In this document: positions 7,280 to 19,539 of the stretch, one piece after another
Layout: each line of letters opens with the position of its first letter
Position numbering within the stretch: the stretch's first letter is position 1
NCBI RefSeq assembly: GCF_020297365.1
Contig: NZ_JAIXIG010000021.1
Location: forward strand, 1-64,000
DNA length: 64,000 bases
Direction of reading: 5' to 3'
DNA from: Curtobacterium oceanosedimentum
Lineage (GTDB): Bacteria; Actinomycetota; Actinomycetes; Actinomycetales; Microbacteriaceae
Position numbers and translations under genes: made by a program
The notes under the pieces: model-generated
Seen by the model: only the letters and a program-made list of their open reading frames with translations
What the model was told of the DNA's origin: nothing
Databases searched by the model: none

Positions 7280-7675
7280 TCAGGCCGCGACCGGCTCCGC
7301 CGGTCGGTCGCGGAGCGCCGGGCAGTGCTCGGCCGTGGGGTGCTCGGTGATCGCGATGACCTCGTCCAGTCGCCCGCGCACCGCCTGGAGTTCGGCGAGC
7401 TGCGCCGTGATCCGGTCGCGCTCGGCGAGCAGCAGGGCGAACGACTCCGGCGTCGACTCGCCACGGTCGACGCACGGCAGCAGCTGCACGATGGTGCGGC
7501 TGGCCAGCCCCGCGGCGAACAGCTGCTGCACGAGCTGCACCCGCTCGACGGCCGCTGCGGTGTAGACGCGCTGTCCACTCGCGGTGCGGTCGGCCGCGAG
7601 CATCCCCTGTTCCTCGTAGTACCGCAGCGAGCGGACGCTGACACCTGTCTCCGCCGCGAGGTCGCCGATGCGCAC
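7280..7675 (-). CDS. MerR-family transcriptional regulator
   Basis: A 131-residue one-component regulator. Residues 1-70 form the MerR winged helix: RIGDLAAETGVSVRSLRYYEEQGML, then the wing GQRVYTAAAVERV. A coiled-coil dimerisation helix (ALLLAERDRITAQLAELQAVRGRL) follows. Only a few residues follow it, with cysteines that do not form a clear metal site. I chose the GTG at 7675 because GGAG lies 6 nt before it and the family usually begins here. An ATG at 7708 is possible but would overlap the promoter. It is divergent from the SDR at 7773, its likely target. Confidence 0.82.
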   Translation of the reverse strand: MRIGDLAAETGVSVRSLRYYEEQGMLAADRTASGQRVYTAAAVERVQLVQQLFAAGLASRTIVQLLPCVDRGESTPESFALLLAERDRITAQLAELQAVRGRLDEVIAITEHPTAEHCPALRDRPAEPVAA

Positions 7676-10541: not shown

Positions 10542-11027
10542 ATGAGCAAGAACAACGAGCAGCACACCCTGGTCCGCACCCTGGCACTCGGCATCCTGAG
10601 CGGCGGCCGCAGCGCCACCCCGCTCGCCGTCCTGGCACTCAACCACGACCGGTCCGCGCTGAAGGGCTCGTGGCAGCAGTGGAAGGTCTTCGCCACCCCG
10701 CTCGGTCGCGGCCTGCTCGTCGCGTCCGCCATCGGGGAGCTCATCGGCGACAAGCTGCCGAAGACCCCGAACCGCATCTCGCCCACCGGTCTGATCGGCC
10801 GTGTCGCCTCCGGTGCGCTCGCCGGTGCCGCCCTCGGCACGACCGGCAAGCGTGACCTGCGCATCGAGGGCGCGATCCTCGGCGGCGTCGGCGCGATCGT
10901 CGGCAGCTTCGTCGGCTGGGCCGCGCGCAAGGCCGTCGGCGCCACCGGGCTGCCCGACCCCGTCGTGGCGCTCGCCGAGGACGCGGCCACCGTGGCCGGC
11001 TCGGTGAAGGTCATCGCCGCCGACTGA
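10542..11027 (+). CDS. DUF4126 family membrane protein
   Basis: A 161-residue hydrophobic protein that fits DUF4126. It has GGRSATPLAVLAL, IGELIGDKLPKTPNRI and several Gly/Ala-rich membrane helices (GALAGAALG, ILGGVGAIVGSFVGWAAR). The GELxxDKLP motif after a helix is typical of the family, whose function is unknown. CAGGAG lies 6 nt before the ATG, and TACGGT at 10511-10516 may be its -10. No operon partner. Confidence 0.78.
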   Translation: MSKNNEQHTLVRTLALGILSGGRSATPLAVLALNHDRSALKGSWQQWKVFATPLGRGLLVASAIGELIGDKLPKTPNRISPTGLIGRVASGALAGAALGTTGKRDLRIEGAILGGVGAIVGSFVGWAARKAVGATGLPDPVVALAEDAATVAGSVKVIAAD

Positions 11028-11079
11028 CCGCAGGCGTTCTGCCCGCGCTCGCCCCGCGCGTGCGCTGCGCGTGGCTTTC

Positions 11080-11130
11080 GTGAGCAGGAATGGTCGGGTC
11101 GGTCCGCCGCACCCGACCATTCCTGCTCAC
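11080..11130. repeat. 51-bp hairpin repeat, copy 1
   Basis: GTGAGCAGGAATGGTCGGGT at 11080-11099 and its exact complement at 11111-11130 enclose an 11-nt loop. The same arms recur at 16618-16668 with a different loop. It lies just downstream of the DUF4126 gene and just upstream of the -10 of the next gene. Confidence 0.8.
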
Positions 11131-11148
11131 CATCTGCGGGGCCGGGCC

Positions 11149-11154
11149 TACGGT
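11149..11154 (+). promoter_or_regulatory. Leaderless-type -10 (TACGGT)
   Basis: TACGGT lies 6 nt before the ATG at 11161, and no Shine-Dalgarno is present. The -35 region would overlap the right arm of the 51-bp hairpin. Confidence 0.55.
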
Positions 11155-11160
11155 GGCCCC

Positions 11161-12132
11161 ATGCACATCGTCGTCATCGGAGCCACCGGCCACATCGGGA
11201 CCTTCCTCGTCCCCCGTCTCGTCCGTGCCGGACACCGGGTCACGGCCCTCAGCCGCGGGACGAGCACGCCGTACGCAGACGCCCCCGAGTGGCAGCAGGT
11301 CGAGCGGGTGACCGCCGACCGCGAGCAGGAGGACCGCGACGGTAGCTTCGGCGACCGCATAGCCGCACTCGGAGCGGACGCCGTCGTCGACCTCGTCTGC
11401 TTCACCGTCGACTCCGCGCGCTCCCTGGTCGAGGCACTCCGCGGCAGCGGTACGCACCTGGTGCACTGCGGTTCGATCTGGCGAGCGGGAGCCTCGCACG
11501 TGCTCCCGATCACCGAGGAGAACGCGACCCCGCCGACGGGCGAGTACGGCGTGCAGAAGGACGCCATCGCCCGGATGCTCGAAGAGGAAACCGCCTCAGG
11601 GGGTTTGTCCACGACCTCACTGCACCCCGGCCACATCAGCGGTCCGGGCTGGATCCCGATCGGTCCGCTCGGCAACCTCGACACCTCGGTGCTGGCCAGG
11701 CTGTCCGCCGGTGGAGCCGTCGAGGTCCCCGGGCTCGGAGCCGAGTCGATGGCCCACGTGCACGCCGACGACGTCGCGCAGGCGTTCCAGCTCGCGGTCG
11801 AACACCGCGACGCGGCCGACGGGCAGGCCTTCTTCATCACGGCTCCGACGGCGCTCACCGCGCGCGGGTACGCCCACCTGGCAGCGTCGTGGTTCGGCCA
11901 GGAGGCCCGGCTCGACTCCGTCACGTGGGACCGGTTCCGCGAGACCACGGCTCCGGAACACGCGGACGCCAGCTGGGAGCACCTGTCGCGCAGCCAGGTG
12001 TTCAGCACCGAGAAGGCGACGCGACTGCTCGGCTACGCGCCCGCGTTCACCGCCGAGGAGACCGTGTTGGACGCCGTGCGCTGGCTCGTCGAGCACGGAG
12101 AACTCGAACTGCCGAACCCACTCGTCGTCTGA
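11161..12132 (+). CDS. NAD-dependent epimerase/dehydratase family protein
   Basis: A 323-residue extended SDR. GATGHIG (about residues 7-13) is the extended-SDR GxxGxxG loop. VVDLVCFTVD, HCGSIW and YGVQKDAI (the Tyr-Lys pair) follow the usual order. HVHADDVAQAFQLAVEH is the conserved substrate-domain start seen in nucleoside-diphosphate-sugar epimerase-like proteins. Substrate unknown. The ATG at 11161 is chosen because TACGGT lies 6 nt upstream; earlier in-frame codons fall in the hairpin repeat. It is convergent with the MFS gene, with only 11 nt between them. Confidence 0.85.
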   Translation: MHIVVIGATGHIGTFLVPRLVRAGHRVTALSRGTSTPYADAPEWQQVERVTADREQEDRDGSFGDRIAALGADAVVDLVCFTVDSARSLVEALRGSGTHLVHCGSIWRAGASHVLPITEENATPPTGEYGVQKDAIARMLEEETASGGLSTTSLHPGHISGPGWIPIGPLGNLDTSVLARLSAGGAVEVPGLGAESMAHVHADDVAQAFQLAVEHRDAADGQAFFITAPTALTARGYAHLAASWFGQEARLDSVTWDRFRETTAPEHADASWEHLSRSQVFSTEKATRLLGYAPAFTAEETVLDAVRWLVEHGELELPNPLVV

Positions 12133-12143
12133 CGCCGCCGCGG

Positions 12144-13337
12144 TCAGCGCGGCGCAGACCCGACCACGAGCCCACGGTCCCGGTGCACGACCCAGACCGT
12201 CGCAGCGAACCCGGTCAGCACCGCAGCACCGACCGTGACCGCCGTCCAACCACCGGCGTTCCACAGCACCGACGCCAGCGCCGAGCCGATCGCGCCACCG
12301 ACGAAGTTCGCGGTGACGAAGGCCGTGTTGAGCCGGCTCCGCGCCGCCGGGTCGACCGAGAAGAGCCGGGTCTGGTTGAGCACGTTCGCCGCCTGCACCG
12401 CGACGTCGAGCAGGAGCACGGCGAGCAGCACCACGACGATCGATCGCGCACCGATGCCGGCCACGACCAGGGACACGAGCAGGAGCACGATCGCTCCCCC
12501 GGTGACCGGCACCGACAGGCCGCGGTCGTGCAGTCGTCCCACCCGCTGCGCCGCCACGGCGCCCGCGAGCCCCACCAGACCGACCAGCCCGATGCCGCTG
12601 GTGGAGAAGTCGTAGGGGGCGCTGCTCAGCAGGAACGTCAGCGCGGTCCAGAACATCGTGAACACGGCGAACACCGACGAGCTGATCACCAGCGTGACCC
12701 GCACGGTCCGGTGGGTCCGGACGGCGCGGAACACCGACAGGACGAGCTGCGGGTAGGGCACCCTGTCGCGGGCTCTGAGCTCCGGGACGGCCCGCCGCAG
12801 CAGCACGGCGAGGACGACCGCGACGACGGCGGCGAGCACGAAGATCGCACGCCACCCGAACGTATCAGCGACCACGCCGCTGATCGTCCGCGACACCAGG
12901 ATGCCGGTGAGCACCCCGGACGCGATCGTGCCGACCACGCGTCCGCGCTGTGCGGGGTCGGCGAGGTCCCCGGCCAGCGGGATGAGGAGCTGCCCGGCGA
13001 CCGTGGTGAGCCCGACCAGTGCCAGGGCGACCAGGAGCGTCGTGAACGTCGGGGCGATCGCGGCGAGCACCAGCGCGACGGCGGAGGCGACGAGCACCCA
13101 CGGGATGAGCCGTCGGCGATCGAGGACGTCCCCGAGCGGCACGACGAGCAGGATGCCGAGGGCGTAGCCGACCTGGGTCAGCGTGACGAGCAGCCCGGCG
13201 AGCGACGCCGACGTGCCGAGCGACGATGCGATGTCGTCGAGCAGCGGTTGCGACCAGTACAGGTTGCCGACCGCCGCTCCCCCGGCGACGGCGAACAACA
13301 GGGTCCTGCCGGTCGACATCTCGTGATGCGTGGTCAT
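12144..13337 (-). CDS. MFS transporter
   Basis: A 397-residue major facilitator protein with about 12 membrane helices. The start YWSQPLLDDIASSLGTS and the loop GDVLDRRRLIPW (motif A, between helices 2 and 3) match the YnfM/sugar-efflux-like branch. GVLTGILVSRTISG is motif C-like, suggesting export. The ATG at 13337 has GGAGGAG upstream and overlaps the stop of the small upstream gene (ATGA), which fixes it. Substrate unknown. Confidence 0.88.
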   Translation of the reverse strand: MTTHHEMSTGRTLLFAVAGGAAVGNLYWSQPLLDDIASSLGTSASLAGLLVTLTQVGYALGILLVVPLGDVLDRRRLIPWVLVASAVALVLAAIAPTFTTLLVALALVGLTTVAGQLLIPLAGDLADPAQRGRVVGTIASGVLTGILVSRTISGVVADTFGWRAIFVLAAVVAVVLAVLLRRAVPELRARDRVPYPQLVLSVFRAVRTHRTVRVTLVISSSVFAVFTMFWTALTFLLSSAPYDFSTSGIGLVGLVGLAGAVAAQRVGRLHDRGLSVPVTGGAIVLLLVSLVVAGIGARSIVVVLLAVLLLDVAVQAANVLNQTRLFSVDPAARSRLNTAFVTANFVGGAIGSALASVLWNAGGWTAVTVGAAVLTGFAATVWVVHRDRGLVVGSAPR

Positions 13338-13576
13338 GCGTCGATCGCTCCTCCGTCCGGGACGTCCAGCTTCTGCCGTCGCCGGAAGAGCGCACCCAGG
13401 TGCCACGGACCTGGGACGAGCCGCACGGCCGCCTCGGCTCGGACGCGTTCCTCGAGCTCGCGGTCACGGGTGAGCTCGTGGATCTCCTGCTCCGCACGCA
13501 GCCGGAACCGCAGGCGCTGCAGGAGACCGAGCGGTGCCGCGGAGGCGGCGTTCCGCAGGGACTCGGTGTCGTTCAT
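13334..13576 (-). CDS. Small charged protein coupled to the MFS gene
   Basis: I do not recognise this 80-residue protein. It is highly charged and probably helical (LRFRLRAEQEIHELTRDRELEERVRAEAA), without signal or membrane segments. Its stop overlaps the MFS start by four bases, so the two are co-translated. The start is uncertain. The ATG at 13576 follows a weak AGTGAG; an upstream start at 13621 would add 15 residues and lacks a ribosome site. Confidence 0.6.
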   Translation of the reverse strand: MNDTESLRNAASAAPLGLLQRLRFRLRAEQEIHELTRDRELEERVRAEAAVRLVPGPWHLGALFRRRQKLDVPDGGAIDA

Positions 13577-13640
13577 GCGCTGATCACTCACTTCGTTCTC
13601 GTGACTGTGGACACCCGGCACGGCGCGTGACGCGAGTGGT

Positions 13641-13688
13641 GACGGCCGGGAGGCGCGGTGCGGGCCCGCCCCGCGCCTCCCGGCCGTC
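13641..13688. terminator. GGGAGGC-type palindrome terminator
   Basis: GACGGCCGGGAGGCGCGG at 13641 pairs with CCGCGCCTCCCGGCCGTC ending at 13688. It is downstream of the XRE regulator at 13710-14588. Confidence 0.65.
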
Positions 13689-13709
13689 GAGCGGTCGCGA
13701 CCACCTGCG

Positions 13710-14588
13710 TCAGGCGAGCTGGCGCGCCCGCTCCGCGATGCCCTCGGTCGCCGCCCACGAGGCCAGTACCCGCAGGGCGTCCGCGGTCGGGCTGCCCGGC
13801 GTCGCCGGGTAGATGGTGAGCGCGAGCCCCGGGTCCTCGGCGAGTTCGAGCGTCTGGAAGTGCAGTTCGAGCGGCCCGACGACGCGGTGCCGGAACGACT
13901 TCACGCCGGCGTAGTGGCGCCGGACGTCGTGCGCCGCCCAGAGGTCGCGGAAGTCATCGCTCCGCATCGACAGCTCGCCGATCAGCGCCGCGAGGTCCTT
14001 GTCGTTCGGCGTGCGGCCCGCTTCGCGGCGCAGGATCGCGACGTTGATCCGGGCTGCCCGCTGCCAGTCCTGGTAGAAGTCCCGCGCCCGCGGGTCGAGG
14101 AAGATGAAGCGCGAGAAGTTCATCGGCCGTGCCGGCGCCGTGACCATGTCCGAGTGCATCGCGAAGCCGAGTGCGTTCGCGGCGACGATGTCCTGCCGGG
14201 TGTTGATGATGATCGCCGGGGCGTCCGTGACGACGTCGAGCAGGTACTGCAGCTCGGGTCGGACCGCCGCGACGGGCACGACGCGACCGGCCCGGCGCGG
14301 CGTCTCGTTCTGGTGCCGCGACAGGTCGCGCAGGTGCTCCTGCTCGGCGGGGTCGAGCTGCAGGGCCCGGCCGATGGCGTCGAGCACGCTGTCCGAGACC
14401 CCCTGCAGGTTGCCGCGCTCGAGCCGCGTGTAGTAGTCGATGCTGACGCCGGCCAGGCGCGCGACCTCTTCACGACGCAGCCCGGTGACGCGGCGCCGCG
14501 TGCCGAAGGTCTCGACGCCGGCCTGCTCGGGGGTGATGCGGGCGCGACGGCTGGAGAGGAAGTCGCGCGCTTCGTCGCGGTGGTTCAT
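13710..14588 (-). CDS. XRE-family regulator with MmyB-like ligand domain
   Basis: A 292-residue DNA-binding protein. The N terminus carries the family signature RDFLSSRRARITPEQAG, then the helix-turn-helix GLRREEVARLAGVSIDYYTRLERGN (about residues 36-61). The C-terminal 180 residues match the MmyB-like ligand domain (INTRQDIVAANALG, FIFLDPRARDFYQDW, LIGELSMRSDDFRDLW). Such regulators often control adjacent oxidoreductases. No Shine-Dalgarno precedes the ATG; TACGGT lies 6 nt upstream. A paralogue is at 26210-27121. Confidence 0.9.
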   Translation of the reverse strand: MNHRDEARDFLSSRRARITPEQAGVETFGTRRRVTGLRREEVARLAGVSIDYYTRLERGNLQGVSDSVLDAIGRALQLDPAEQEHLRDLSRHQNETPRRAGRVVPVAAVRPELQYLLDVVTDAPAIIINTRQDIVAANALGFAMHSDMVTAPARPMNFSRFIFLDPRARDFYQDWQRAARINVAILRREAGRTPNDKDLAALIGELSMRSDDFRDLWAAHDVRRHYAGVKSFRHRVVGPLELHFQTLELAEDPGLALTIYPATPGSPTADALRVLASWAATEGIAERARQLA

Positions 14589-14594
14589 GCCGTC

Positions 14595-14600
14595 ACCGTA
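14595..14600 (-). promoter_or_regulatory. Leaderless-type -10 (TACGGT)
   Basis: TACGGT on the minus strand ends 6 nt before the ATG of the XRE gene at 14588. Confidence 0.55.
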
Positions 14601-14643
14601 CGGCGCGGCGTCCGGCGGGAGCGAGGGGCTGTGGGAACCCCTC

Positions 14644-15801
14644 TCACGTGCGGGTGATCGGCACCGAGACGATCCGGTCGTCGCCCTCCGACGGGGTCCC
14701 GCGGCCGTCGGTGTTGTTCGTCACGAACCACAGGGTGTCCGACGGGCCCTCGAGCACCGTGCGGATGCGACCGAAGTCGCCGGCGAAGTACTCGGTCGCC
14801 GTGTCGGGTTCGTCGGCGGGGACCGCGCGGAGGACCCGGCCCTGCAGGTTCGCGATGAAGACCGTGTCGTCGACGACGGTGAGCCCGCTCGGGGACGCCT
14901 CGTCGGTGGACCACTGCTGCACGGGGTCGACGAAGCCCTGGTCCTCGCCGCCGGTGCCCTCGACCTCGGGCCAGCCGTAGTTCGACCCGGGCTCGATGAC
15001 GTTGAGCTCGTCGTGCGCGTCCTCACCGAACTCCGACGCGAACATCGTGCCGTCCGACGACCACCCCATGCCCTGCACGTTGCGGTGCCCGAGGCTCCAC
15101 ACCGGCGACCCCTCGATCGGGTTGTCCTCGGGGACCTCGCCGTCCGGGGTGAGCCGCAGGATCTTGCCCGCGAGCGATCCCTCGTCCTGCGCGTCCGTGC
15201 TCGCGCCGGCGTCCCCGACGCTCGCGTAGAGCATGTCGTCGGGACCGAACGCGATCCGGCCGCCGTCGTGGAACGTGTTCTTCGGCAGCCCGTCGATGAT
15301 CGTCGTCGCGTCGCCGAGCGCCCACGACCCGGCGCTCCCGGTCAGCTCGTACCGCTGGATGCGGTTGCCGTCGTCGGCCGTGGAGTACACGAACAGGTCG
15401 TCGTCGTGCAGCGCGAGCCCGAGCAGCCCGCCCTCGCCGCCGTGGCTGACGCCGTCGACGGTGCCGACCTGGCGGGTGGTGCCGTCGGACCGCAGCTCGA
15501 GCACCCGGGCCGAGTCGCGCTCGCTGACCAGCGCGTCGCCGTCGTCACCCGTCAGGACCACCGACCATGGGGCCTCCAGGCCGGTGACCACGTCGCTGGT
15601 GTCACCGTCGAGCCCTACCTGACCGGCCGACAGGTCGGCGGGGGCGGTCGCGCGCGCCGACGGCGAGCCGCCCCGGTCGGATCCGTCCTGCTCCGTTCCG
15701 CCACCGCTCGAGCAGCCGGTGAGGGCCAGGGCGGCGACGGCGGCGATGCCGGCCGCCGACCAGAGGCGGCGGCTGCGGGGCGTTCCGGCGGGTGTGTCCA
15801 C
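14644..15801 (-). CDS. PQQ-type sugar dehydrogenase lipoprotein
   Basis: A 385-residue lipoprotein. The lipobox LTGC lies near residue 30 after a hydrophobic helix. The rest is a soluble glucose/sorbosone dehydrogenase-like beta-propeller: GLEAPWSV, GGEGGLLGLALH, HDGGRIAFGPDDMLYASVGD, LRLTPDGEVPEDNP, HRNVQGMGW, NYGWPEVEG and DDRIVSVP follow the order of the PQQ-dependent sugar dehydrogenase (GSDH) family. The likely reaction is periplasm-side sugar oxidation. The GTG at 15801 has a strong GGGAGG six bases upstream; the more distal GTG at 15831 has none. Confidence 0.87.
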   Translation of the reverse strand: MDTPAGTPRSRRLWSAAGIAAVAALALTGCSSGGGTEQDGSDRGGSPSARATAPADLSAGQVGLDGDTSDVVTGLEAPWSVVLTGDDGDALVSERDSARVLELRSDGTTRQVGTVDGVSHGGEGGLLGLALHDDDLFVYSTADDGNRIQRYELTGSAGSWALGDATTIIDGLPKNTFHDGGRIAFGPDDMLYASVGDAGASTDAQDEGSLAGKILRLTPDGEVPEDNPIEGSPVWSLGHRNVQGMGWSSDGTMFASEFGEDAHDELNVIEPGSNYGWPEVEGTGGEDQGFVDPVQQWSTDEASPSGLTVVDDTVFIANLQGRVLRAVPADEPDTATEYFAGDFGRIRTVLEGPSDTLWFVTNNTDGRGTPSEGDDRIVSVPITRT

Positions 15802-15926
15802 GATGATCCTCCCGGGTCGTGGGTCGATCACACTCGCTGTGTTCGGGAAACGCCTGAGGGACCGCGGTGCCCGGCTTGGTTCAGTGGGCGACGGTCGGCA
15901 CCACGTCGTCCCGGAAGGACCAGCAC

Positions 15927-16598
15927 ATGACCACCATCGCCATCGTCGGGGCCGGCAAGGGCCTCGGCCTCGCCGTCGCCGAGCGCTTCGCCCGTGAGGG
16001 CTTCGCCGTCGCCCTCATCTCCCGCAACCAGGACCGCCTGGACGGCCTCGCGGCAGAGCTGCGCGAGCGCGGCCACACCGCCGCCGGGTTCGCCGCGAAC
16101 GTGCGCGACGGGGACTCCCTGCGCGCCGCACTCGAACGCGCCACCGAGCAGCTCGGCCCCATCGAGGTGCTGCAGTACAGCCCGCTCCCCGCCAAGGAGT
16201 ACATGCGTCCCGTGCTCGAGACCACGGCGGAGGACCTGGTCGGTCCGATCGAGTTCTCGGTCTACGGCTCGGTCAACGCCGTCCGCCAGGTGCTCCCCGG
16301 CATGCGCGCGATCGGCCACGGCACGATCCTGTTCGTCAACGGCGGCAGCGCGGTCCGTCCGGGCGCTCGCGTCACCGGAACGTCCGTCGCCTTCGCCGGC
16401 GAGAGCGCCTACGCCCAGCTGCTCCACGATGCCGTCCGTGACGAGGACGTGCACGTCGGCCAGCTCATCATCCCGTTCGGCATCGACGACGGACAGCCCG
16501 AGCACTCCGGGGAGTCCATCGCCGACCGCCTGTGGACGATCCACACCGAGCGCGGCGACTTCCGCACGTACGCGGAGCCGCTGCCCGAGCTCGGGTGA
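15927..16598 (+). CDS. SDR-fold protein lacking the YxxxK pair
   Basis: A 223-residue SDR-fold protein. GAGKGLGLAVAERF (about residues 8-21) is a good cofactor loop, and SRNQDRL suggests NADP. However NNAG is replaced by LQYSP (about 82-86), and around residues 153-160, where YxxxK should be, the sequence is SVAFAGES. Ser141 remains. It may bind a nucleotide without classical catalysis or use other residues. GGAAGGAC lies 7 nt before the ATG. It is convergent with the ABC permease. Confidence 0.8.
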   Translation: MTTIAIVGAGKGLGLAVAERFAREGFAVALISRNQDRLDGLAAELRERGHTAAGFAANVRDGDSLRAALERATEQLGPIEVLQYSPLPAKEYMRPVLETTAEDLVGPIEFSVYGSVNAVRQVLPGMRAIGHGTILFVNGGSAVRPGARVTGTSVAFAGESAYAQLLHDAVRDEDVHVGQLIIPFGIDDGQPEHSGESIADRLWTIHTERGDFRTYAEPLPELG

Positions 16599-16617
16599 GC
16601 GTGGCGCTCGCCGCTTC

Positions 16618-16668
16618 GTGAGCAGGAATGGTCGGGTCCGACGCAGCGACCCGACCATTCCTGCTCAC
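16618..16668. repeat. 51-bp hairpin repeat, copy 2
   Basis: Arms at 16618-16637 and 16649-16668 are identical to those at 11080-11130 (20 of 20 bases each), with an unrelated 11-nt loop. It lies just after the SDR gene and just before a GGGAGGC terminator. Confidence 0.8.
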
Positions 16669-16673
16669 GATGT

Positions 16674-16721
16674 GACGGACGGGAGGCCCGTGGCGATGCC
16701 GCCACGCGCCTCCCGTCCGTC
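16674..16721. terminator. GGGAGGC/GCCTCCC palindrome terminator
   Basis: GACGGACGGGA (16674-16684) pairs with TCCCGTCCGTC (16711-16721). It separates the convergent SDR and FtsX-type permease genes and overlaps the permease stop by two bases. Confidence 0.65.
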
Positions 16722-19539
16722 AGTGCGCCCGTCGCACCGCCACGCGCCGCCGACCCCTCGAGGTCAGCCACGCCCCGGCCGTCACCACGAGGGGCAGGCC
16801 GATCGCGAGCAGCGCCAGCACCGGCCAGTCCGGCACGAACGGCAGGTGGTTCACCGCATCCGGGCCCTGGGCGAACCGCAGGGTCAGGGCGCGGATGGGC
16901 AGCAGGCCGAGCAGCGTCCCGATCACCGAGCCGACCGTCGCCAGGATCGCCGCCTGCCAGGTGGACACCCCGCGTCGGAGTCGCGGGGCGGCACCGATCG
17001 CGTCGAGCACCTCGTCGTCCCGCCGCCCGTCGGACCGCGCGAGACCGATCGCCACCGTCGTCGCACCGATCGTCACGGCGGCAGCCAGGGCCAGCACGAT
17101 CGCCCGGACCAGCGCGCCGTGGTCGACCGGACCGGTCTCGTAGATGAACGACGGGCCGCCCCACCGGTCACGGTCGTCGCCGCCGAAGCTCTGCCACGCC
17201 GAGCTCAGCTCGTCCCACTGGGCCGGCTGGATGTCGTGGGGCAGCGTCGTGACGAGCATGCCGTCCACCGCGGGCACGTCGTAGCGCTCGGCGGTGGCCT
17301 TCGTCATGAACACGCCGACCTGGATCCGCGGGGTCTGGACGTCGAGCACGGCCGGGATCGTCACGCTCGTGTCTGGCCGGGTCCGCTCGGTGATGGTCGG
17401 GCTCTCCCACGTGCGGTCGTGGAAGGTGTCGATGCGGACCGTGCCGTCGTGGGCGTACTCGGGCCACAGCGAGATCGCCCGGCCGCCCTCCAACGCGTCC
17501 CGGACGGCTGCGGACGGCCGGTGCCCGGTGAGCACGGCGTAGTCGTCGACCGTGCCCGTCCAGACGTGCGGGGTCGAGGTGTAGGTCGGGTCCAGGTAGG
17601 TCGAGCACGTCGTGGTGTCGTTCGTCGGGCAGTCGTACGGCGTCCAACGGTGCGCCACCGTGATGGTCGAGGGGGTGTCACCGAGCGAGTCGTTCGTGAC
17701 GCCGAGCACCCGGATGCGGTCCTGGTCGAACACGCCGGCGACGACCTTCGCCGCGTGCGCGGTGAGTGCGGCGTCGTGCTGCCCGGCCGACCCCTCCTCG
17801 GTCATGGCCTGCACCTCGGACGTGGCGACGCCGACGGCCGTCGTGTACTCGTACCCGCGGACGTACTGCGCGTGGCTCGAGGCGCTCCAGGTGATCACGA
17901 CCGACGCGACGAACACGACGCTCATCACGCTCGCGAGCACGGGGACCGTCCGCACCGGGTTCCGGCGGGCGTCGCGGGCGGCCAGGCGCGCGGACAGTCC
18001 GGCGCGTGCGGTCAGTCGCGTGACGAGGGCGAGCAGCCACGGCGAGCAGATCGCGATGCCGAGCTGCATCAGGCACGGCCCGATCGCGACGCCGGCACCG
18101 ACGGCCCACGCCCAGTGGTCCTGCTGCACCCGTCGGTCGTTCAGCATGAGCACGCCGACCCCGCAGGCCAGCGTCATCACGGCGCCGAGGACCACGAGCA
18201 ACGGTCCCCAGATGCGCCGACGACGACGGGCCGGACGGCTGACGGGCACCGGACGGAGCGAGCCCCGCAGTGCCGCGAGCACGTTGATCCGGGTCGCCGA
18301 CCGTGCCGCGACGAGCGCGGAGACGAGTCCGGCGAGCACCCCGGCGGCGGCGATGGACAGCAGCAGGAGCGGCGGCACGTGCAGCCCGGGGAAGGACACC
18401 ACGTTGCCGTTGTCGACCAGGCGGAACGCGAGCACGCCGAGCCCGGTGCCGACGGCGACCCCGAGGACCGCTCCGACGACCCCGAGCACGAGCCCGGACC
18501 CTGCGACGACGGCGCGGACGAACCGCTTGTCCCCGCCGACGCTCGTGACGATGGCGTACGAACGGGTGTCGGCGCGGGTGCCGACCAGGAACGCGGCCCC
18601 GGCGAGCAGGGCGACCTCGAACATGGCGAAGACGCCGAACAACGCCATCGCCCCGAGGTACCAACCGACCGAGAACCCCTGCCCGGCACCGGCCAACCGG
18701 GCGTCCGGCGGGTCGAGCACCACGGGTCGTGACTGCACGACGATGCCGTGCGCGTTGAGCTGCCGGATCTCCGACCAGGTGGGCGGATCGGTCGGCAGGT
18801 AGACGGTGACGTCGGAGAGTCCGGCGTCGTCGGTCGTGTCGGTCGTCGCCAGCGTCGTGCCCCACGGCAGGAACACGCCCTGCGCGTCGGGGTCGGCACC
18901 GAGGTCGACCATGGTGCCGGTGATCGTGAAGCGCTTGGTGACCGGGTCGGTCAGGTCCACGGTGTCGCCGATCCGGGCGCCGAGCCGCTCGAGGGTCGCG
19001 GGGGTGACCATCAGCTGCCCGCGCGCGGTCGGCGTGGCGCCATCGAGCACGCGCCAGTGCCCCTCGAGGGACGGGTCCCAGGCGCTGCCCTCGACCGCGG
19101 TCAACCCGACCGGTCCCCCCGACCCCTGCACGACGACCGGCGTGCTGCCGATCGGGATCGACAGTGCGCCGTCGGGTACGTGGGCCAGGACGTTCGCGAA
19201 GGGCGAGTCCTCGTCCGACTCCGTGACGGGGCTGTTCCGCTCCGAGTCCGTGAACTCCCACTGCACCGGGTCCTGCACCATGCCGGGCAGGTCCGGGCCA
19301 GACACGCGCATCTGCGCCCGTGCCTGGCCGAGGTCGTAGTCCAGCCGCTCGGTGACCGTGGCCTGCGTCGACTGCACCACGACGGCCACGGCCGCGAACC
19401 CCGCCGTGGGGATGCCGATGAGGGCGACGATCAGGGCCGCCCGCCCCGTCTTCGCGAACGCCAGTCGACGCCCCAGTCGGAGCGCCGGTCTCAGGGCGAA
19501 CGGCGTCCGGCCGGTCCCGGCACGCCGACCCCGGCTCAC
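16720..19539 (-). CDS. FtsX-type ABC transporter permease (large)
   Basis: A 939-residue permease of a MacB/FtsX-type transporter. A first helix (about residues 33-58) is followed by a large extracellular domain (about 60-290). A block of helices with the FtsX-like core comes next (GVFAMFEVALLAGAAFLVG, then ILGVAVGT-type segments). A second exported domain (about 550-790) and terminal helices follow. Two FtsX cores in one chain make it a fused double permease. The GTG overlaps the ATPase stop by four bases. Substrate unknown; lipophilic drugs, peptides or lipoproteins are usual. Confidence 0.87.
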   Translation of the reverse strand: MSRGRRAGTGRTPFALRPALRLGRRLAFAKTGRAALIVALIGIPTAGFAAVAVVVQSTQATVTERLDYDLGQARAQMRVSGPDLPGMVQDPVQWEFTDSERNSPVTESDEDSPFANVLAHVPDGALSIPIGSTPVVVQGSGGPVGLTAVEGSAWDPSLEGHWRVLDGATPTARGQLMVTPATLERLGARIGDTVDLTDPVTKRFTITGTMVDLGADPDAQGVFLPWGTTLATTDTTDDAGLSDVTVYLPTDPPTWSEIRQLNAHGIVVQSRPVVLDPPDARLAGAGQGFSVGWYLGAMALFGVFAMFEVALLAGAAFLVGTRADTRSYAIVTSVGGDKRFVRAVVAGSGLVLGVVGAVLGVAVGTGLGVLAFRLVDNGNVVSFPGLHVPPLLLLSIAAAGVLAGLVSALVAARSATRINVLAALRGSLRPVPVSRPARRRRRIWGPLLVVLGAVMTLACGVGVLMLNDRRVQQDHWAWAVGAGVAIGPCLMQLGIAICSPWLLALVTRLTARAGLSARLAARDARRNPVRTVPVLASVMSVVFVASVVITWSASSHAQYVRGYEYTTAVGVATSEVQAMTEEGSAGQHDAALTAHAAKVVAGVFDQDRIRVLGVTNDSLGDTPSTITVAHRWTPYDCPTNDTTTCSTYLDPTYTSTPHVWTGTVDDYAVLTGHRPSAAVRDALEGGRAISLWPEYAHDGTVRIDTFHDRTWESPTITERTRPDTSVTIPAVLDVQTPRIQVGVFMTKATAERYDVPAVDGMLVTTLPHDIQPAQWDELSSAWQSFGGDDRDRWGGPSFIYETGPVDHGALVRAIVLALAAAVTIGATTVAIGLARSDGRRDDEVLDAIGAAPRLRRGVSTWQAAILATVGSVIGTLLGLLPIRALTLRFAQGPDAVNHLPFVPDWPVLALLAIGLPLVVTAGAWLTSRGRRRVAVRRAH

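Follow-up and report, generated by a model that had tools for sequence, protein, structure and literature searches.

The window, by which we mean the whole stretch of 64,000 nucleotides of Curtobacterium oceanosedimentum DNA that was analysed, contains two palindromes of 51 bp with identical 20-nucleotide arms and 11-nucleotide loops, which raises the question of what these palindromes are and what keeps their arms alike. Read directly from the sequence, the two hairpins are located exactly where the earlier note had placed them, at 11080-11130 and 16618-16668, and each is preceded by TTC, as it had stated (Table 1). A scan of the window allowing up to three mismatches recovered these four arms and no others. 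The arms were not found in 100 dinucleotide shuffles of the window, and the reversed, uncomplemented 20-mer has no copy in the Curtobacterium genome from which the window originates, so a chance origin was rejected. The two palindromes are predicted to fold stably, with free energies of -49.6 and -55.4 kcal/mol and z-scores of -8.6 and -9.1 (four stretches folded).

Table 1. Features of the two palindromes and their surroundings in the window
Feature	Position	Strand	Remark
Palindromic element, copy 1	11080..11130	none	
Copy 1, left arm	11080-11099		GTGAGCAGGAATGGTCGGGT
Copy 1, loop	11100-11110		CGGTCCGCCGC
Copy 1, right arm	11111-11130		complement of GTGAGCAGGAATGGTCGGGT
Copy 1, left flank	11076..11079		TTTC, near the type-A flank CTTC
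Palindromic element, copy 2	16618..16668	none	
Copy 2, left arm	16618-16637		same arm as copy 1 (GTGAGCAGGAATGGTCGGGT)
Copy 2, loop	16638-16648		CCGACGCAGCG
Copy 2, right arm	16649-16668		complement of left arm
Copy 2, left flank	16614..16617		CTTC, the commonest type-A flank
GGGAGGC terminator-like hairpin	16674..16721		other hairpin family, 5 bp past copy 2
Gene upstream of copy 1	10542..11027	+	DUF4126 match; stop codon 52 bp before copy 1
Gene downstream of copy 1	11161..12132	+	NAD-dependent epimerase family; tandem orientation
Gene upstream of copy 2	15867..16598	+	short-chain dehydrogenase; stop codon 19 bp before copy 2
Convergent gene after copy 2	16720..19539	-	FtsX-like permease

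The two palindromes belong to a REP-like family of palindromic DNA that is centred on the genus and dispersed over gene 3′ ends. The exact 20-mer arm occurs 34 times in the 3.32-Mb genome (19 on the + and 15 on the - strand), and all 34 occurrences are paired with a like arm, forming 22 elements; the loop is 11 nucleotides long in 19 of these and 12, 12, and 13 in the remaining three. The covariance model R1, built on 31 elements and with matches counted to an E-value of 0.1, produced 130 matches, which correspond to 65 places, each detected on both strands. The further copies for which the earlier note had proposed to search this genome and its relatives are thus clearly present, and its description of dispersed, extragenic, REP-like palindromes with conserved arms is borne out. 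Three elements with similar loops form a local triplet within 330 bp (L131:2987-3312), amplified locally next to a gene that by eye resembles a phosphate transporter. A run of AGAAGC repeats is located just before another element (L086, about 7445-7495).

The conserved parts of the palindrome were determined from 223 distinct elements, 60 from the same genome as the window and the others from relatives, a few of which are probably false. The loop has 11 nucleotides in 212 of the 223 elements and in 54 of the 60, a count that is biased by the set having been gathered partly with a gap of 8-14 and a model with an 11-nucleotide loop; the exact arms, which were found without an assumption about the loop, agree (19 of 22 elements). 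Stem positions 1-8 (GTGAGCAG), 10, and 14-20 (GTCGGGT) vary little, and positions 9, 11, 12, and 13 are more variable. Of the two main subtypes, A consists of CTTC followed by GTGAGCAGGAATGGTCGGGT and B of TCGA followed by GTGAGCAGAAGACGTCGGGT, and intermediates exist. The left and right mid-stem segments are equal in 134 of the 223 elements (permutation mean 29, maximum 49, 1000 permutations), and left-right matching at the variable stem positions exceeds that after permutation, reaching 176 of 205 at position 12 (mean 82, maximum 103, 300 shuffles). Within the loops of 205 elements, left-right pairing is not above permutation and the ends do not covary.

The outer flanks of the palindrome are conserved. 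Within a subtype, positions -1, -3, and -4 have no left-right excess and position -2 has a slight one (152 versus a maximum of 148), so the flanks look constrained mainly as sequence. Position -2 is G beside 68 of 97 arms with C at position 13 (C13), compared with 19 of 335 other arms, and between orthologs the flank changes jointly in 15 of the 23 arms in which C13 changes, versus 7 of the 85 in which it does not. Among 13 mixed-arm elements, of which one is probably false, the flank was not seen to follow its own arm: it is G in 4, T in 5, and another base in 4 cases beside the C13 arm, and G in 6, T in 5, and another base in 2 cases beside the other arm. The half-sites are thus not read independently, and the coupling of C13 with the flank belongs to the whole element.

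The placement relative to genes, called by a codon-bias script, was counted for 61 of the 65 places, with the four weakest omitted. As the earlier note had described for the two copies, the family is extragenic: no element is inside a called gene, and five share 4 bp with a gene end. A gene 3′ end is adjacent to 59 of the 61 elements, 31 of them flanked by convergent and 28 by tandem genes; of the other two, one is flanked by divergent genes and one is at a contig end. In gaps drawn from stretches taken around the elements, the divergent arrangement is avoided (1 of 58 gaps with an element versus 81 of 236 element-free gaps, p 2e-8) and the convergent one is enriched (31 of 58 versus 35 of 236, p 4e-9). 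When relatives are included, 111 of the 211 distinct elements are flanked by convergent genes, 78 by tandem genes, and 10 by divergent genes, while 2 overlap a called gene and 10 are at an edge. In one complete relative, G008, 62 places are spread over the chromosome in 55 clusters, and no position bias along it was found (KS p 0.46).

Comparison of 49 distinct ortholog pairs, which derive from 25 elements of the window's genome and so are not independent, resolves the palindrome into segments that diverge at different rates. The outer motif GTGAGCAG differs at 7 of 784 sites (0.009), the inner motif GTCGGGT at 35 of 686 (0.051), the mid-stem at 132 of 490 (0.269), with the two arms mostly matching, the flanks of four bases at 146 of 392 (0.372), and the loop at 221 of 539 (0.410). 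The neighbouring aligned DNA is 88% identical on average, a divergence of about 12% compared with the 0.9% of the outer motif. Selection seems to maintain both the arm sequence and the spacing. Some loci switch subtype between species in both arms and the flanks together. The element at the 16618 locus is present in 9 of 30 sequences, with type A in G000, G003, G007, and G008, and a CAATG form in G047; G015, G016, and G055 combine C at position 13 with TCGA on the left, and G056 has such an arm on one side. At the 11080 locus, the element is kept in six genomes, G015 retains the right arm only, and a GGGAGGC hairpin replaces the element in all ten genomes of one clade (L291-L300); the remaining loci are short, rearranged, masked, without either hairpin family, or without the left flank.

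Matches were found in 51 of 66 genomes of the genus, 42 with a best E-value below 1e-8 and nine weaker. A scan of contigs provided at least 104 matches; the 80 listed, which are the named loci and were picked for bearing elements, are all from Curtobacterium and include C. flaccumfaciens, C. aurantiacum, and C. pusillum. A search of the literature for such repeats in Curtobacterium returned nothing among the matches listed. In a midpoint-rooted tree of 43 of the 66 genomes based on two genes, the type-A-rich genomes cluster and element numbers are patchy: the tree neighbours G004 and G006 have 79 and 1 matches, respectively, among the matches listed, with per-genome counts resting on 83 scored candidates at most. 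In the bacterial family, 26 of 398 genomes match, including 17 from other genera with weak matches. Among these, G171 (three places) and G116 (two places) share the 20-11-20 geometry, which the search model itself favours, but with arms of their own; all 10 of their 10 flanks read YCGR. Several further matches outside the genus have another geometry. In the class, 12 of 394 genomes match. The distant actinobacterium G707 contains, at three places, a 40-bp palindrome of GTGAGCAGAAATG, N14, and the complement, with one inner base unpaired in one of them; in this one genome the distance between the paired GTGAGCAGAAATG motifs is shorter by 11 bp, roughly a helical turn.

The reading that we prefer, with a probability of roughly 40%, is that the palindrome is a symmetric, fixed-spacing site at the DNA level, or a DNA hairpin, for a putative protein. 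Each half-site would span about 24 bp, composed of a CRCWTS or YCGA flank, GTGAGCAG, the subtype block, and GTCGGGT, and two half-sites would face each other across a spacer that is almost always 11 bp long. One putative lineage-restricted, sequence-specific protein would read the site as DNA, either as a duplex or as an extruded hairpin, and would need both arms alike. The subtypes would reflect differing specificities of this protein, and the arm symmetry may also gain from one arm being copied onto the other with the hairpin as template. The placement would allow action between transcription units while sparing promoters, as is thought for REPs. We count the dispersion, the placement at gene 3′ ends, the conservation of arms, flanks, and spacing, the symmetry, the joint changes of C13 and the flank, the lack of a G-U excess among stem mismatches, and the 11-bp shift in G707 in support of this reading. 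The flanks of mixed-arm elements, which do not track their own arm, speak against it, as does the fact that symmetry without G-U bias is equally expected from a mutational process. The genes neighbouring the clusters L131, L207, and L223, viewed as candidates for a trans-acting factor, appeared ordinary by eye.

An extension of this reading, which we regard as doubtful, is a chromosome-wide network at gene ends in which symmetric sites with half-sites of about 24 bp, one helical turn apart, are bound by a putative protein with interchangeable specificities. In such a network, whole sites, arms and flanks included, would change type together at fixed loci between species. The family is large and tightly constrained in arms and spacing, no Y1 enzyme was found in the genus, two other genera have a similar geometry, and the subtype changes at fixed loci. 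It thus provides a natural system for asking why scattered palindromes stay alike and whether they serve the host.

The strongest alternative, although we consider it rather unlikely, is that the palindrome functions as a bidirectional RNA hairpin, a terminator or 3′-end mRNA stabiliser without a U-tract, the stem of which is recognised or inherited. The position beside gene 3′ ends and between convergent genes, the very stable predicted fold, and the GGGAGGC hairpins that occupy the place of the element at the 11080 locus are all consistent with such a role. Nevertheless, a stable hairpin after a stop codon is accompanied by few T residues, with a mean of 1.3 and a maximum of 4 in the 10 nucleotides past the stem of 61 elements, and a terminator needs neither a sequence-fixed stem nor a fixed-length loop. 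A GGGAGGC hairpin is present within 120 bp of 11 of the 61 elements, including copy 2, and in convergent gaps GGAGGC hairpins occur in 9 of 31 with an element and 14 of 35 without (p 0.44), so the two do not exclude each other. Mismatches in the sense strand of 78 tandem elements comprise 28 G-U and 30 A-C (p 0.90), and this lack of a G-U excess counts against maintenance at the RNA level. The palindrome is therefore not a typical terminator. No Rfam family reached the gathering score in the window, where the best sub-threshold match, near copy 2, scored 29.7 of 60 bits, and a known RNA family was rejected.

The GGGAGGC hairpins resemble the palindromes in having a conserved stem and in their location between genes (they occur in 23 of 66 gaps between convergent genes, in 20 of 146 between tandem genes, and in 0 of 82 between divergent genes), but differ in stem sequence, in their variable loop length, and in occurring in the element-poor genomes sampled. 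The distinction between the two hairpin families made in the earlier note is thus supported. In 444 kb of sampled DNA from the window's genome there are 35 GGGAGGC hairpins, one per 12.7 kb. In the element-poor genomes G012 and G006, of which 200 kb each were covered, GGGAGGC types were the only substitute hairpin family found among the 8-mers shared most.

Descent from an old non-autonomous mobile palindrome of the REP, REPIN, or MITE kind, moved by a putative transposase and now maintained or decaying, is unlikely. The dispersed copies, their patchy numbers in close genomes such as G004 and G006, and alignable sites with and without the element suit this origin. Like REP elements, the palindromes are short, extragenic, and present in many copies, with a presumed action on transcription ends or mRNA. 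GTAG-tagged REP-like repeats are usually explained by a Y1 transposase. Its family, PF01797, is absent from all 66 genomes of the genus (62 of which reach 90% completeness with no more than 5% contamination; a control search matched in 5 of 14), so the REP-associated transposase that the earlier note had proposed to look for is missing and a Y1 enzyme was rejected as the source. The REP tags are also absent or rare: the tetranucleotides at 446 flanks include CTTC 146, TCGA 41, CCGA 23, CGTC 7, and GTAG 0 times. The neisserial dRS3 repeats likewise have conserved inverted arms that enclose a variable, fixed-length core, but are much shorter. The Curtobacterium arms of 20 bp, symmetric at both ends of a free 11-nucleotide loop of nearly fixed length, differ from the CGTC REP families of PMC3733652, in which the stems measure 8-9 bp and the loops 4-5.

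The earlier suggestions of a mobile and recently copied element are not supported. No gene intervenes between any of the 34 exact arms and its partner. Loops within the window's genome are shared no more than expected by chance, except in the local triplet, and their nearest-neighbour distances are otherwise close to the shuffled null, in disagreement with the similar interior of a MITE. Two groups of equal loops inspected in G008 are located in duplications, one segmental and one tandem (580 bp and 217 bp). The 217-bp unit is tandemly repeated together with its element in L410 (G008:C1:1155000-1158600). Alignable element-free sites of the 16618 locus in four genomes have no clear duplication by eye, and clean insertion with target duplication was not found at the few loci covered. 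No match was found in plasmids for window:11060-11150 or L398, in phages for window:16600-16690, or in viral contigs for the type-A pattern; a phage or plasmid origin was rejected for these queries, mostly one per set.

A mainly mutational origin, in which hairpin template switching and conversion between copies homogenise palindromes of little function, is improbable, since it leaves the placement and spacing unexplained and fits poorly with the 0.9% divergence of GTGAGCAG and the nearly fixed loop length. It draws on mismatches without strand bias, on the whole loop CCCGTGACGGG common to L126 and its ortholog L162, in which both arms and both flanks differ, and on 13 pairs with a C13 change, whose loops differ at 5.4 of 11 sites versus 7.0 after random pairing (lowest of 2000 draws, 5.46). 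This loop signal is weak: six elements of the window's genome supply all 13 pairs, one pair has an identical loop, the pair with L260 is mispaired, and across the subtype change at 16618, 22% of random loops are equally close.

Several other hairpins were observed. GGGAGGC hairpins with a conserved stem are located in the window at 1840, 3476, 7227, 13648, 16681, 20939, 24649, 27174, and 32825. At the 16618 locus in L258, L259, L260, and L263, the GGGAGGC hairpin reads TGGAGGC, and in three of the four the other side of the stem has the matching CCTCCA, a compensatory change. A long hairpin that starts with ACGCAACGTGGGCGGTTCC is common to G012 and G006 (L371:15812 and L375:5850) and is unrelated to the palindrome family. 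Hairpins with a GGTCGC core and another geometry occur in other actinobacterial genera (L329, L330, L331, L407, L421, and L422) and perhaps represent a wider hairpin class, or chance.
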